From Lachnospiraceae bacterium (GTDB taxonomy: Bacteria; Bacillota; Clostridia; Lachnospirales; Lachnospiraceae): 10,400 nucleotides of DNA. Below are positions 3,497-10,400 of this stretch, piece by piece (the first letter of the stretch is position 1; each line of letters begins with the position of its first letter). Where the stretch lies: positions 1 to 10,400 of the forward strand of contig JAFRCB010000195.1 of the NCBI GenBank assembly GCA_017404585.1, written 5' to 3'. The position numbers were made by a program, and so were the translations under genes. The notes below the pieces were generated by a model. The model was not told where the DNA came from. It did not search any database and saw nothing but the letters and a program-made list of their open reading frames with translations.

Positions 3497-3538
3497 CGGT
3501 ACATGAACTGCGGCAGGCAAAGCCGCAGCCGTGTACCG
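3497..3538 (+). other. Leader hairpin 3, just upstream of the licT ribosome binding site
   Basis: The outer stem CGGTAC (3497-3502) / GTACCG (3533-3538) and the perfect inner stem CTGCGGC (3508-3514) / GCCGCAG (3522-3528) enclose the loop AGGCAAA. It ends 12 bases before the AGGAG of licT. The loop resembles the conserved AGGCAAA of RAT elements, but the fold is a plain hairpin. It may influence translation or RNA stability; this is inference. Confidence 0.6.
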
Positions 3539-3562
3539 ATTTTCAACTTTAGGAGACCTGCT

Positions 3563-4420
3563 TTGAAGGTAATTAAGTCACTCAATAATAATATGGTCCT
3601 TGCCTCTGACGATAACGGCAGGGAGTGTATTTATAAAGGCAAGGGCATCGGGTTCCAAAAGAAAAAGGGAGACCCGGTCGAAATGGATAAAATAGAGAGA
3701 AGTTTTGTGCCTGCAGATGAGGAGGAGAGCAGGCATTTTCAACAGCTTTTCTCCGAGATTCCGGAGGAATACTGGGATATGGCCGGGAAAGTTGTCGAAT
3801 ACGCGAGGACAAGGCGTAAGCTCAAGATCACGGATAAAGTCATTTTGCCCCTGTGCGATCATATGGCAGGAGCGGTCGAGCGATATCAACAGGGTATTGC
3901 TCTGGACAATCCGATGCTCTGGGACGTGAAACGCGTGTATCCGAAGGAGTTTCGTGTCGGTATGTATGCGCTGACTCTCATTAAAGAGAGTTACGGTATC
4001 GAGATGAAAGAGGATGAGGCAGCATATCTTGCCTATCATTTTGTGATTGACGAGCTCGGCCGGCAGGACGGTCCCGATCCCGGGCTTATGACGGAGATCG
4101 TAGGGAATATTATAGAGATCATTGAGAAGTCCTTCCAGATCGAACTCAACGAGGAGGACTGGAATTACCAAAGATTCCTCACCCACCTGAAATTTTTCGT
4201 GAACCGTGTGATCGATCGAGAACCGAATGAGGAATCGGAAGATCAGTCACTGTTCGAGGAAGTAAGGGGGCACTATCCGCGCGTCTACAAGTGTGTGGAG
4301 CGCATTTCCGACTATATTCTTATAGAACATCACTATGATGTGAATCGTGACGAGCAGCTGTATCTCATGATGCACCTTGAGAGGGTGACAAGAAAGGCAG
4401 TTCGCCGGAAAACGAACTGA
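3563..4420 (+). CDS. licT: LicT/BglG-family transcriptional antiterminator (TTG start)
   Basis: A 285-residue RNA-binding antiterminator. The N-terminal CAT domain (about 1-55, with the family signature NNNMVL and GKGIGFQKKKGD) binds the RAT; two PTS regulation domains follow. All four regulatory histidines are present: H100 (CDHM) and H159 (AYHFV) in PRD1, H208 (THLKFFV) and H271 (MMHLERV) in PRD2. H100 and H159 match Bacillus LicT numbering exactly, which supports the TTG start at 3563. AGGAG (3551-3555) lies 7 bases before it. An upstream in-frame ATG at 3389 lies in the terminator stem and would add 58 residues foreign to the family. Expected regulation: the beta-glucoside EII phosphorylates PRD1 when sugar is absent, and HPr phosphorylates PRD2 to activate. 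The gene leads the operon, 137 bases before the permease. The symbol bglG would be equally fair. Confidence 0.95.
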   Translation: MKVIKSLNNNMVLASDDNGRECIYKGKGIGFQKKKGDPVEMDKIERSFVPADEEESRHFQQLFSEIPEEYWDMAGKVVEYARTRRKLKITDKVILPLCDHMAGAVERYQQGIALDNPMLWDVKRVYPKEFRVGMYALTLIKESYGIEMKEDEAAYLAYHFVIDELGRQDGPDPGLMTEIVGNIIEIIEKSFQIELNEEDWNYQRFLTHLKFFVNRVIDREPNEESEDQSLFEEVRGHYPRVYKCVERISDYILIEHHYDVNRDEQLYLMMHLERVTRKAVRRKTN

Positions 4421-4511
4421 TTATCCATATATCGAGACTTGAATATGACGTGATTTTGGAGTGATATTTGCAGCAATGCGTACATATATACTGACTAGAT
4501 TACGGACCCGA

Positions 4512-4529
4512 CAGCTCCGTACGGAGCTG
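4512..4529. repeat. 18-base perfect palindrome upstream of the permease
   Basis: CAGCTCCGTACGGAGCTG reads the same on both strands. It ends 13 bases before the AAGGAGG of the permease gene. There is no T-tract, so it is unlikely to be a terminator. TACGGA at 4501-4506 could pair with the TCCGTA inside it as an alternative fold. It could be an RNA hairpin for stability or processing, or a DNA operator. I found no convincing promoter or second RAT between licT and the permease. Confidence 0.7.
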
Positions 4530-4557
4530 AATATTATACAAAAAGGAGGGATGACTT

Positions 4558-6501
4558 ATGGCAATGGATTATGAATCCGTGTCGAAACAGATTATCGACA
4601 AAGTCGGTGGATCTGGCAACATTGCAAGTGCTGAGCACTGCATGACAAGACTTCGTCTTATTCTCAATGATGAGAGTAAGGCAGACGACGAGGCGGTCAA
4701 GGCGATAAAGGGCGTCAAGTCAGTTATCAAACAGGGCGGCCAGTATCAGGTCGTCATCGGAAATGAGGTAGGCAGCCTCTTCCCGGTATTTAAGAAAACG
4801 GCAGGCATCAAGGGCGATGCCGCTGCCGCTCCTGCAAAGGCCGAAGGCCCGATCATCCAGAGAATCTTCGGATTCGTAGCAGGCATTATGACCCCGCTTC
4901 TGCCGGGTATGCTTGGAACCGGTATGGTAAAGGTCCTTCTGACCCTTCTCACAGCTATGGGAGTCATGGATTCGAGCCAGACGACCTACATCATCCTTTA
5001 CGGAATGGCAGATTCCTTCTTCTATTTCCTGCCGATCCTTCTCGGATGGAGTATTGCCAAGAAGACCAACCACAGCGTACCGCTCTTCATGGTCATCGGC
5101 GCAGCCCTTATTTATCCGGATTTCGTCACTATGATGAGTGCGGCCGGCGCGACAGAAGGTATTAAGTACGGCACATTCCTCGGACAGAACTGCGTATATC
5201 TCTTTGGATTTATACCGGTAATCTGCACAACATACACATCCTCCATGCTCCCGATGGCTCTTATGGCGCCGGTCATGGTGGCTGTCGAGGATTTTGCTGA
5301 CAGAGTTTCTCCGAACCTGGTCAAGTCTTTCCTTAAGCCGATGCTCTTCTGCCTGATCTGTACACCGATTGTTGTCTGTGTCCTTGGACCTCTCGGCGGT
5401 GTCATCGGTTCAGGTCTTGCAGCTGTATTTGCTGCGATGTACGGTGCGGTTCCGTGGCTCACAGTCGCAATTCTTTCCGCGCTCATGCCGTTCATCGTCA
5501 TGACAGGTATGCACTATGCCCTGCTGCCGCTCTTCATGAGCAATATCGCTAATCTGGGCTATGACGTAGTCATCCTTGTCACAATGTTCTGCTCCAACAT
5601 CGCGCAGGGCGGCGCCTGCTTCGGCGTTGCTGCCAAGACAATGGATATCGAGACAAAATCCGAAGGTCTCGCCTGCGGTATTTCTGCTGCTGTTGCCGGT
5701 ATCACTGAGCCGGGTATGTACGGTATTAACCTCCGCTTTATGAAGCCGATGTACGCGGCTGTCGCTGCGGCAGGTCTCTCCGGCCTCTGGTGCGGTCTTA
5801 CAGGCGTTAAAGGTTACACGATGGGCGGCTCCCCGTCCTTCATGTCCCTCATCACATTCATCGGCGGCGACGCTTCTCAGAGCTTCGGTGTTATGCACGG
5901 TGTTGTCTTCGGCGCGATCGGCGGCGTTGTGTCTCTCGTTGTCGCTGCTATCCTTGCCTATATTCTTTACAATGACAAAGATGCAGGTGTAGACGTAGCC
6001 CCGTCTGTCCCGGTAGCTGAGGAAGCAGAACCGAATAAGAAGCTTGTCGAGCAGTTCGACCTTGTCTCTCCGATGGAAGGCACAGTAGTTCCTCTTGCGA
6101 ATGTCCCGGATGAAGTATTTGCTTCCGGCGCTCTCGGCGAAGGCGTCGCAATTCTTCCGACCGACGGCAACGTGTATGCTCCGTGTGACGGCGCGATCAC
6201 GACTCTGATGGATTCCCGCCATGCGATCGGCATGGTCGCCGACAACGGCGTGGAGCTCCTTATCCACGTAGGTCTTGACACTGTGGCTATGAACGGTGCT
6301 CCGTTCGAGTACAAGATCAAGCAGGATCAGGAAGTCAAGAAGGGCGACCTGCTCCTTGTTGCGGATCTTAAGGCAATTGAAGCTGCCGGTTATAAGCTCT
6401 ATACACCGATCATCGTCACTAACAGTGAGGATTATGTTTCTATCAAGCCTACGGCTGAGGGAACTGTTGCCCATGGCGATAAACTCATGACAATCGCATA
6501 A
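4558..6501 (+). CDS. bglP: Beta-glucoside-type PTS permease EIIBCA
   Basis: A 647-residue membrane protein that imports a beta-glucoside and phosphorylates it. Domain order is B-C-A. EIIB is about residues 1-80, with phosphorylation-site C28 (AEHCMTRLR) and GQYQVVIGNEV. An Ala/Pro-rich linker (DAAAAPAKAEGP) follows. EIIC is about 97-475, strongly hydrophobic with many membrane segments and the EIIC signature ITEPGMYG (from 382). EIIA of the glucose-family type is about 495-647, with H555 (SRHAIG) and the phosphorylated H570 (IHVGLDTV), 15 residues apart as in EIIA-Glc. AAGGAGG sits 8 bases before the ATG. It lies between its antiterminator and a 6-phospho-beta-glucosidase, which points to cellobiose, salicin or arbutin-like sugars; the exact substrate cannot be read. 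It should also set the LicT phosphorylation state. Confidence 0.95.
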   Translation: MAMDYESVSKQIIDKVGGSGNIASAEHCMTRLRLILNDESKADDEAVKAIKGVKSVIKQGGQYQVVIGNEVGSLFPVFKKTAGIKGDAAAAPAKAEGPIIQRIFGFVAGIMTPLLPGMLGTGMVKVLLTLLTAMGVMDSSQTTYIILYGMADSFFYFLPILLGWSIAKKTNHSVPLFMVIGAALIYPDFVTMMSAAGATEGIKYGTFLGQNCVYLFGFIPVICTTYTSSMLPMALMAPVMVAVEDFADRVSPNLVKSFLKPMLFCLICTPIVVCVLGPLGGVIGSGLAAVFAAMYGAVPWLTVAILSALMPFIVMTGMHYALLPLFMSNIANLGYDVVILVTMFCSNIAQGGACFGVAAKTMDIETKSEGLACGISAAVAGITEPGMYGINLRFMKPMYAAVAAAGLSGLWCGLTGVKGYTMGGSPSFMSLITFIGGDASQSFGVMHGVVFGAIGGVVSLVVAAILAYILYNDKDAGVDVAPSVPVAEEAEPNKKLVEQFDLVSPMEGTVVPLANVPDEVFASGALGEGVAILPTDGNVYAPCDGAITTLMDSRHAIGMVADNGVELLIHVGLDTVAMNGAPFEYKIKQDQEVKKGDLLLVADLKAIEAAGYKLYTPIIVTNSEDYVSIKPTAEGTVAHGDKLMTIA

Positions 6502-6520
6502 TTTTTAGTGTCATAATTAA

Positions 6521-6564
6521 GGCGGCTTATGGGTGGAGGCTGATGTGCGAGGCCCTAAGCCGCC
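6521..6564 (+). other. Intercistronic hairpin between permease and glycosidase (possible attenuator)
   Basis: GGCGGCTTA (6521-6529) pairs perfectly with TAAGCCGCC (6556-6564). After one bulged base, GGG (6531-6533) pairs with CCC (6553-6555). The tail TGCATTTTA is only weakly T-rich, so this is more likely a partial terminator or a 3'-end stabiliser that reduces glycosidase relative to permease transcript than a full stop. Confidence 0.75.
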
Positions 6565-6590
6565 TGCATTTTACCAACGAGGAGGCGTGT

Positions 6591-6644
6591 ATGCAGATAC
6601 AGTCTTGCGAAGAGCGTCCTCTGCTATCTTGTAAGGAGGTATGA
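6591..6644 (+). CDS. Possible 17-codon leader ORF abutting the glycosidase start
   Basis: The ATG at 6591 has GGAGG (6581-6585) 5 bases upstream and encodes MQIQSCEERPLLSCKEV. Its TGA stop (6642-6644) is followed immediately by the glycosidase ATG at 6645, and the glycosidase ribosome binding site (AAGGAGG) is read inside it as Lys-Glu. The strong binding site and exact TGAATG junction suggest translational coupling. I recognise no family, and a short frame like this may be chance. Confidence 0.35.
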   Translation: MQIQSCEERPLLSCKEV

Positions 6645-8100
<1,456 letters not shown>

Positions 8101-8846: not shown

Positions 8847-9734
8847 ATGTCAATTTTCAGGGGTTCAGGCGTAGCAATCGTGACGCCCATGAAGGAAAAC
8901 GGCGAAGTCAATTATGATTCTTATGAGGCTCTTCTTGAGGACCAGATCAAGAATCATACGGATGCGATCATCACAGTCGGAACGTCAGGGGAGGCTCCGA
9001 CACTCGATGACGATGAGCATCTCGAAGTTATCAAGTTCACGGTTGAAGTTGTAAAGGGCCGTATTCCGGTCATCGCGGGTACCGGCTCCAACAATACAGC
9101 CCACGCAATAATGATGTCCGAAGAGTCAGAGAAGCTCGGCGCGGACGGACTTCTTCTTGTCACCCCGTATTACAATAAGGCGACCCAGGGCGGTCTGATC
9201 GCCCATTACTCAGCAATCGCGCAGTCCACAAAGCTTCCGTGCATCGTCTACAATGTTCCGTCCAGAACAGGTACGACCGTTCAGCCGAAGACAATGATGG
9301 AGATTGCAAAGAGAAATCCCAACGTTACGGCCATCAAGGAAGCGAGCGGCAACTTCAGCGCAATCGCCGAGCTTGCTCATCTTTCGGACGGCATGATCGA
9401 CATCTATTCGGGCAATGACGACCAGGTCGTCCCGCTGTGCGCACTCGGCGGAGTCGGTGTCATCTCTGTTCTTGCAAATGTTGCTCCGCAGCAGACTCAT
9501 GACATGGTGCAGTACTGCCTCGACGGAAATTTCGCTGAGGCCGCAAAGATTCAGCTGGCTGCTCAGCCGCTCATCTCCGCACTGTTCTGCGAGGTCAACC
9601 CGATTCCGGTCAAGGCTGCTCTTAACATGCAGGGATTCAATGTGGGCAGCCCGCGCCTTCCGCTTACTGAGATGGAGCCGGCTCACAAGGAGATCCTGCG
9701 TAAGGCTATGATAGAATTCGGCTGTCTTTCATAA
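8847..9734 (+). CDS. dapA: 4-hydroxy-tetrahydrodipicolinate synthase
   Basis: A 295-residue cytoplasmic aldolase-type TIM-barrel enzyme. It condenses pyruvate with aspartate semialdehyde in the first committed step of lysine/diaminopimelate synthesis. The Schiff-base lysine is K164 (AIKEASG). Y135 and R140 lie in YNVPSRTG. The substrate-loop motif is GTSGE (45-49), where the common family sequence is GTTGE, so the second Thr of the catalytic triad region is Ser (S47), keeping the hydroxyl. PYYNKATQGG carries the Tyr contributed across the dimer interface. The ATG at 8847 has GGAGG 8 bases upstream; an in-frame TTG at 8832 overlaps that binding site and is less likely. dapB follows after 79 bases, giving consecutive pathway steps in one unit. 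Confidence 0.96.
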   Translation: MSIFRGSGVAIVTPMKENGEVNYDSYEALLEDQIKNHTDAIITVGTSGEAPTLDDDEHLEVIKFTVEVVKGRIPVIAGTGSNNTAHAIMMSEESEKLGADGLLLVTPYYNKATQGGLIAHYSAIAQSTKLPCIVYNVPSRTGTTVQPKTMMEIAKRNPNVTAIKEASGNFSAIAELAHLSDGMIDIYSGNDDQVVPLCALGGVGVISVLANVAPQQTHDMVQYCLDGNFAEAAKIQLAAQPLISALFCEVNPIPVKAALNMQGFNVGSPRLPLTEMEPAHKEILRKAMIEFGCLS

Positions 9735-9768: not shown

Positions 9769-9788
9769 ACCCGCAGCATGGCGCGGGT
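9769..9788 (+). other. Small intercistronic hairpin between dapA and dapB
   Basis: ACCCGC (9769-9774) pairs with GCGGGT (9783-9788) around an 8-base loop. No T-tract follows, so it does not look like a terminator; it may protect the dapA message end. dapB has its own AGGAGA binding site 13 bases further on. Confidence 0.5.
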
Positions 9789-9813
9789 CAACCGAAGCAA
9801 AGGAGAAAAGTAA

Positions 9814-10400
9814 ATGGTACGTGTTATTTTACATGGCTGAAGCGGCCATATGGGACAGGTCGTAACGGATATCATAGCAGCGGAGCCGGATGTACAGATC
9901 GTAGCCGGCATTGACGCGGTGGACCTTCATAACAGGGAGTATCCTGTATTTACTAAAGCGGCAGACTGCCAGGTACCGGCCGACGTTATCATTGACTTTT
10001 CCACAGCGAAAGCTGTTGATGTCCTTGTGAATTACGGCGTAGAGCGGAATATCCCGATTGTTCTCTGCACGACAGGCCTTTCGGAAGAGCAGATCGCGAA
10101 CATAAAGGCGGCATCGGAGGAGATTGCGATCCTCCGTTCAGCCAACATGTCAATCGGTATCAATCTTCTTCTCAAGCTTCTGCGCGAGGTCTCCGGAACA
10201 CTGACGAAGTCCGGATTCGATCCGGAGATCATCGAGCAGCATCACCGGAGAAAGATCGACGCGCCGAGCGGCACGGCAGCTGTCCTCGCGGATGCCATCA
10301 ACGAAGGAACCGGCGGGAAGTATCATTATGTCTATGACCGCAGCGAGCGCCGTGAAAAGCGTGACGCGAAAGAAATCGGCATCTCTTCAGTCCGTGGCGG
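9814..10400 (+). CDS. dapB: 4-hydroxy-tetrahydrodipicolinate reductase with in-frame TGA at codon 9 (partial, runs off window)
   Basis: DapB reduces the DapA product with NAD(P)H. The ATG at 9814 has AGGAGA (9801-9806) 7 bases upstream and begins MVRVILHG, then TGA (9838-9840), then SGHMGQVV. This is the Rossmann nucleotide-binding loop G-x-[SN]-G-x-MG, and the stop falls on x, which I recall as commonly Cys in clostridial DapB. The next 186 codons to the window edge are open and carry the family features: VAGIDA, DVIIDFSTAKAV, IVLCTTGLS, ANMSIGINLLLKLL, and the active-site EQHHRRKIDAPSGTA (H143, H144, K147, S152-T154). Translation from the internal ATG at 9850 would lose strand 1 and the loop and has no good binding site. 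So this is either a recoded (selenocysteine) gene, a very recent nonsense mutation, or a sequence error. Gene identity is sure; its state is not. Confidence 0.9.
9838..9840 (+). other. In-frame UGA, candidate selenocysteine codon of dapB
   Basis: This is the only in-frame stop in the visible dapB, at codon 9 in the cofactor-binding loop, aligned with a position that is often Cys in related proteins (recalled, not searched). UGA serves as a true stop for three other full genes here, so a genome-wide reassignment is unlikely. Confidence 0.4.
9849..9876 (+). promoter_or_regulatory. Weak SECIS-like hairpin downstream of the dapB UGA
   Basis: TATGG (9849-9853) can pair with TCATA (9872-9876), and A9855-C9856 can pair further in. 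This leaves an apical loop starting AGGTC at 9857, 16 bases after the UGA. A G near the start of a loop at this distance is what bacterial SECIS elements show, and the AGGTC resembles the loop of E. coli fdhF as I recall it. The stem is short and AU-rich, so this is suggestive only. Confidence 0.22.

Follow-up and report, generated by a model that had tools for sequence, protein, structure and literature searches.

The window analysed here is the entire contig C55 of the draft bin G000, a stretch of 10,400 bases, and the bin as a whole comprises 2.16 Mb in 361 contigs and is 65% complete. At the 3' end of the window an intact dapA is followed directly by dapB, which runs into the end of the contig (Table 1). 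Direct reading of the sequence gives an ATG and eight sense codons, then a TGA as codon 9, and then 186 open codons up to the last base. The preliminary description had reported just this arrangement, a good ribosome binding site and start, eight codons, an in-frame UGA and an undamaged gene beyond it, and all of it is confirmed, the last point for that part of dapB which the contig holds. Between the TGA and the contig end there are 560 bases, and comparison with the 251-codon dapB of G025 and G017, the two genomes nearest to G000, puts the missing 3' part at 56 codons. The read-through fragment of 195 residues scored 141.4 bits against the NCBIfam model TIGR00036 (dapB), for which the cut-off is 122, and is thereby assigned to the family at equivalog level. 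A further copy of dapB, which it had been proposed to look for, was not found by homology search in the bin at its 65% completeness.

Table 1. Features of the dapA-dapB region, in window coordinates
Feature	Position	Strand	Remarks
dapA, intact	8847..9734	+	directly 5' of dapB; control for start calling and constraint
Shine-Dalgarno sequence AAGGAG	9800..9805	+	8 nt 5' of the dapB ATG; direct sequence reading
dapB (4-hydroxy-tetrahydrodipicolinate reductase), codons 1-195	9814..10400	+	contig end inside gene; in-frame TGA as codon 9; ORF reading and TIGR00036
8-codon reading frame, should the TGA terminate translation	9814..9840	+	
In-frame TGA, codon 9	9838..9840	+	within the glycine-rich NAD(P)H loop; G025 and G017 have a Cys codon here
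Expected location of a bacterial SECIS	9841..9906	+	nothing with a stem of at least 4 bp fits the published model
Internal ATG (Met13)	9850..9852	+	start called in 14 close database relatives; without Shine-Dalgarno-like sequence upstream

The remaining genes of the window are intact open reading frames. They include a bgl-type operon (3512-8084) in which a LicT-type antiterminator, a beta-glucoside PTS IIABC protein and a 6-phospho-beta-glucosidase are encoded in series, each scoring above an NCBIfam cut-off. An inverted repeat, ACCCGC/GCGGGT, occupies positions 9769-9789 in the gap between dapA and dapB, 5' of the Shine-Dalgarno sequence of the latter, and no Rfam family reached its gathering threshold anywhere in the window.

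The codon taken by the TGA is one at which cysteine prevails, as the preliminary description had supposed. Across 94 DapB homologues, each of at least 245 residues, codon 9 specifies Cys in 86% and Ala in 14%, and there is a Cys codon at this position both in G025 (97% complete) and in G017 (82% complete), the DapB of which is 97% identical to that of the window over 195 residues. Since Ala is found in a sizeable minority of homologues, the position evidently takes a small residue and is probably not catalytic; it is probably not redox-active either. Sister strains with an ordinary Cys codon had been put forward as a means of recognising a nonsense mutation, and the Cys codons of G025 and G017 do speak for such a change, but the two genomes share only about 87% DNA identity with G000 over the dapB region and so are not sister strains of it. 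The search for the same UGA in independent genomes, which had also been suggested, turned up none in the genomes covered. Matches to dapB were obtained in 35 of 42 genus members at E <= 1e-60 and in 53 of 61 relatives at E <= 0.001, and the stop was present only in G000; in an order-wide search 365 of 392 genomes were matched and, among the matches listed, G000 was again the only one with a stop. A pattern scan of genome contigs for the codon-9 UGA motif, which used one form of the motif and may have left out genomes very close to G000, produced nine matches, all of them due to chance and none in a dapB frame, and there were no matches at all in a pattern scan of viral contigs.

The one sign of recurrence, an indirect one, comes from predicted proteins in the database. 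Of the 19 closest DapB entries (at least 88% identity), 14 start at Met13, which corresponds to the internal ATG located 9 nt 3' of the TGA, and five keep the full N terminus. The Met13-start entries are 239-240 residues long and those displayed are intact to the C terminus. A start at Met13 is found in just one (P0038) of the 101 more distant DapB entries listed, and N-terminal truncation in none of the 12 DapA entries at 96% identity or above; these figures argue against a bias of the gene caller as the origin of the short forms and also make a sequencing slip unlikely. Entry P0005, which is 99% identical to the DapB of the window and starts at Met13, shares all four of the window-private replacements that fall within its span, and a second contig thus shows the break. 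Judged from these predictions, the likeliest cause of the Met13 starts is a stop or some other lesion 5' of Met13 in other assemblies. In a protein tree the Met13 forms and the full-length forms are interleaved, a pattern that could have arisen by repeated change, by recombination or through start calls that are uneven. The Met13 entries are known as predicted proteins only, and the cluster under P0011, with 117 members, is not comparable with the SelA cluster of 46 mentioned below.

No further lesion was found in the 195 codons of dapB on the contig (the last 56 are absent), and by this measure the gene does not count as a pseudogene. On the branch leading to G000 there have been five replacements and the stop in dapB, set against 14 unambiguous synonymous changes; four of the five replacements are ambiguous in that they fall at codons which also differ between G025 and G017. 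A first count of five replacements per 15 synonymous changes, compared with one per 57 between those two genomes (Fisher p 0.004), had suggested relaxed constraint on dapB; the idea was dropped because dapA, ybaK and bglA also show more replacements on the G000 branch (5/26, 8/19 and 20/96 replacements/synonymous changes respectively). Constraint on dapB looks no weaker than that on its neighbours as far as substitution counts can tell. The gene should be essential for the synthesis of meso-DAP and lysine, and its essentiality, the lack of a second copy and the constraint that has been kept together suggest that the allele is young, leaky or decoded.

An important consideration is whether UGA has an unusual meaning in this genome generally. 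TGA terminates 117 of 262 long open reading frames sampled in G000 and 235 of 485 in G025. A codon survey in which 732 G025 open reading frames yielded 63 best matches of at least 70%, 50 of them in a sense-like frame, provided 17,202 codons for comparison between the two genomes. Columns with Cys read TGC 188 times, TGT 60 times and TGA twice, the two TGA being that of dapB and one situated just 5' of where bglA starts. In none of the 50 comparisons did TGA occur in a Trp column. Altogether eight rows contained a stop. Five of these stops precede the first Met or start that could be used, and the others are that of dapB, a Lys-to-TAA and a Tyr-to-TAG change. The Lys-to-TAA change, at L119:40 (G000:C170), is an apparent nonsense codon where G025 has Lys, lies 40 bases from a contig end and is either an assembly error or real, and the Tyr-to-TAG change at L175:3078 is in a doubtful frame at 74% identity. 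Among the five tRNA genes found in the G000 contigs scanned, a small sample representing about a fifth of the genome, there was none reading UGA other than tRNA-Sec. Genome-wide recoding of UGA is rejected for this sample, in which TGA is an ordinary stop and isolated at dapB among the Cys and Trp columns.

The genome does possess selenocysteine machinery, the presence of which was among the checks proposed beforehand. Matches were obtained for SelA (598.6 bits), SelB (361.9 bits) and a tRNA-Sec with anticodon TCA (65.7 bits), and there are two copies of selD (on contigs C275 and C361), each with an in-frame TGA. The selA and selB genes are on contig C197 and the tRNA-Sec gene on C361, where there is also a gene with an in-frame TGA for a reductase selenoprotein B of the betaine-reductase type (NF040795, 786.5 bits, cut-off 775). 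SelA exceeded the cut-off in only 5 of 42 congeners; there was no match to it in G025 or G017, nor any match above the cut-off to tRNA-Sec in either. A database SelA at 97% identity (P0242) heads a cluster of 46 sequences. The occurrence of two selD genes raised the suspicion that the sel genes had been binned as contaminants, but this is countered by a 1.7-kb flank of C197 with 94% identity to G017, by a repeat shared by C197 and C361 that is abundant in G000, G025 and G017, and by matching composition: when tetranucleotide usage was correlated with that of 50 reference contigs from the bin, the values were 0.945 for C197, 0.943 for C361, 0.895 for C275 and 0.945 for the window, whereas the reference contigs of at least 5 kb had a median of 0.915 and a stretch of G013 gave 0.705. 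The coincidence of the UGA with a Sec-capable genome is genuine and counts in favour of selenocysteine. The repeat belongs to a short interspersed family of about 200-340 bases (L056:30-300 on G000:C197 and L037:5278-5614 on G000:C361), which is matched dozens of times in G025 and G017 but seldom in the remaining congeners that were searched. Genes for a betaine/glycine-type reductase extend over G000:C361:1-10393 and G000:C197:1900-9082 (selenoprotein B and component C alpha and beta) and are accompanied by selA, selB, selD, tRNA-Sec and a BCCT betaine transporter, whilst the two nearest genomes are without a SelA match.

Insertion of selenocysteine would call for a SECIS element immediately 3' of the UGA, and the published bacterial model specifies a loop of 3-9 nt with a G in its first two bases, an upper stem of 4-16 bp, a spacing of 16-37 nt and a minimum free energy of -7.5 kcal/mol or lower (PMC13188914). 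A model hairpin with a contiguous stem of at least 4 bp was not found 3' of dapB codon 9 in G000, G025 or G017. Both selD genes have a 9-bp stem with the loop GUU at -11.7 kcal/mol, equalled by 7 of 2118 background codons, and the stems of the two differ in their letters and yet pair; the selenoprotein B gene has a 6-bp stem with the loop GGU, for which the stem by itself gives -5.6, a value that 221 of the 2118 also reach. The power of the test is limited, as 1255 of the 2118 background codons have a hairpin and 863 do not. A looser scan in which internal loops were allowed did give a hairpin for dapB (-8.3 kcal/mol, 3-bp upper stem), but 144 of 446 background codons do as well, and it is present also in G025 and G017, which lack the machinery; the corresponding figures are -9.4 (119 of 446) for selenoprotein B and -11.7 (62 of 446) for selD. 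G025 and G017 have a weak 3-bp hairpin (-0.4 kcal/mol) that has been lost in G000, where codon 17 is changed, and thus nothing has been built up next to the UGA. General folding 3' of the UGA is ordinary (z 0.11) and the DNA there is nearly identical in G000 and the two nearest genomes. It is mainly because a model SECIS is absent that dapB is not filed here as a selenoprotein gene, and this is not proof, since in one test at least 13% of the known genes escaped bSECISearch (PMC12013277). The term "dihydrodipicolinate" does not occur in the main text, supplements apart, of four papers on selenoproteins (PMC13188914, PMC1088965, PMC12013277, PMC9312934), "dapB" is likewise absent from the main text of the three of them searched for it, and within the searchable literature the combination of dihydrodipicolinate reductase and selenocysteine brought up only a rumen metagenome study.

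The observations are probably to be explained by an ordinary dapB in which, within a single lineage of this uncultured bacterium, a genuine nonsense allele has UGA in place of the codon for Cys9. Both of the simpler alternatives raised in the preliminary description are affected by the comparison with relatives, a single-base nonsense mutation being favoured by Cys in G025 and G017 and a sequencing error being made unlikely by the Met13 starts. With such an allele most ribosomes would stop after eight codons, DapB would be absent or strongly reduced, and any that was made would come from low-level readthrough of the UGA. The break may perhaps be polymorphic and present in further strains, given how many predicted DapB proteins of near-identical sequence have Met13 as their start. 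Against a nonsense allele stand the expected essentiality of dapB, the lack of a second copy and the constraint on the gene; it is also a notable coincidence that the change struck a Cys codon in a congener with SelA, of which there are just 5 among the 42. That coincidence is what would be expected if DapB were a selenoprotein, with SelB delivering Sec-tRNA at the UGA, Sec replacing Cys9 in the cofactor loop and the SECIS being atypical or unrecognised. The UGA is exactly at the Cys codon, selA, selB, tRNA-Sec and two UGA-containing selD lie on native-looking contigs, the genomes that have neither a SelA match nor a tRNA-Sec above the cut-off carry Cys, the close SelA heads a database cluster of 46 sequences, and both the hairpin of the looser scan and the known genes missed by SECIS prediction leave some room for an unusual element. 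Nevertheless it is very improbable that DapB contains selenocysteine: the model hairpin is missing, the looser one is common in the background and found where there is no machinery, folding and downstream DNA are unremarkable, Ala replaces Cys in 14% of homologues, the word dihydrodipicolinate is missing from the main texts of the four papers cited above, and Met13 forms close to the machinery-lacking G025 and G017 would not fit if they carry the UGA. The suggestion that dapB might encode an undescribed selenoprotein is therefore unsupported, on the grounds of the absent model SECIS, the Ala at the site and the lack of the UGA in other genomes searched.

It is unlikely, though less so than selenocysteine, that the UGA is passed in some other way and DapB remains functional, whether by programmed or near-cognate readthrough serving as a dosage device or by restart at Met13. 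The frame downstream is constrained about as dapA is, the displayed Met13 forms are intact to the C terminus, there is an ATG just beyond the TGA in G000, and in-frame stops have been proposed as a means of expression control in bacteria (PMC7918605). Restart is hampered by the want of a Shine-Dalgarno-like sequence upstream of Met13, and its product, deprived of the first strand and of the greater part of the GxxGxMG loop, would not be expected to bind NAD(P)H; as to readthrough, only tRNA-Sec reads UGA among the five tRNA genes found, a small sample from about a fifth of the genome. An error of assembly, through low coverage or strain mixing near the contig end, is improbable. The bin is a fragmented and incomplete draft, the TGA is close to a contig end and so, at 40 bases from the C170 terminus, is the other codon that looks like a nonsense change (Lys to TAA), but P0005, with its 99% identity and lineage-private replacements, and 13 further close entries start at Met13, and the rest of the genes in the window are intact.

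A nonsense allele in dapB resembles the in-frame stop polymorphisms described by Belinky et al. (2021, PMC7918605) in being a single stop in a gene under constraint, where close relatives have a sense codon. The Paenibacillus TAG/CAG case in the same report, with stop and sense forms mixed on the tree, corresponds to what may be the situation here. That report describes in-frame stops kept under purifying selection in bacteria, and proposes a role in expression control, and it gives independent origins of the same in-frame stop as rare, which speaks against recurrent change at dapB codon 9. The dapB stop is unlike the cases described there in that it has hit a Cys codon, in a genome capable of Sec synthesis and in a gene expected to be essential, and in that its recurrence would be deduced from protein predictions. 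With bacterial selenoproteins that have Cys homologues, such as SelD and selenoprotein B of this genome, dapB has in common the UGA aligned to Cys and the presence of Sec machinery; it differs in having no model SECIS, no conserved UGA among the other genomes searched and a site that is probably not redox-active. With ordinary DapB (TIGR00036) it shares family sequence, motifs and position after dapA, and departs from it by the UGA at codon 9. It is also doubtful, and rather improbable on the present evidence, that among close strains codon 9 has alternated more than once between Cys and UGA, with the UGA form functional by recoding, through Sec with an atypical SECIS or through tuned readthrough; an essential enzyme of lysine and cell-wall synthesis would then rely on the decoding of a stop codon.

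With a UGA in place of a Cys codon and the Sec machinery encoded in the genome, this dapB mimics a new selenoprotein gene, yet it fails the SECIS test, which is a lesson for selenoprotein calls that rest on homology alone. If the UGA form should be functional and recurrent, DapB would be a rare example of an essential enzyme of biosynthesis that can be made only if ribosomes pass a stop codon.
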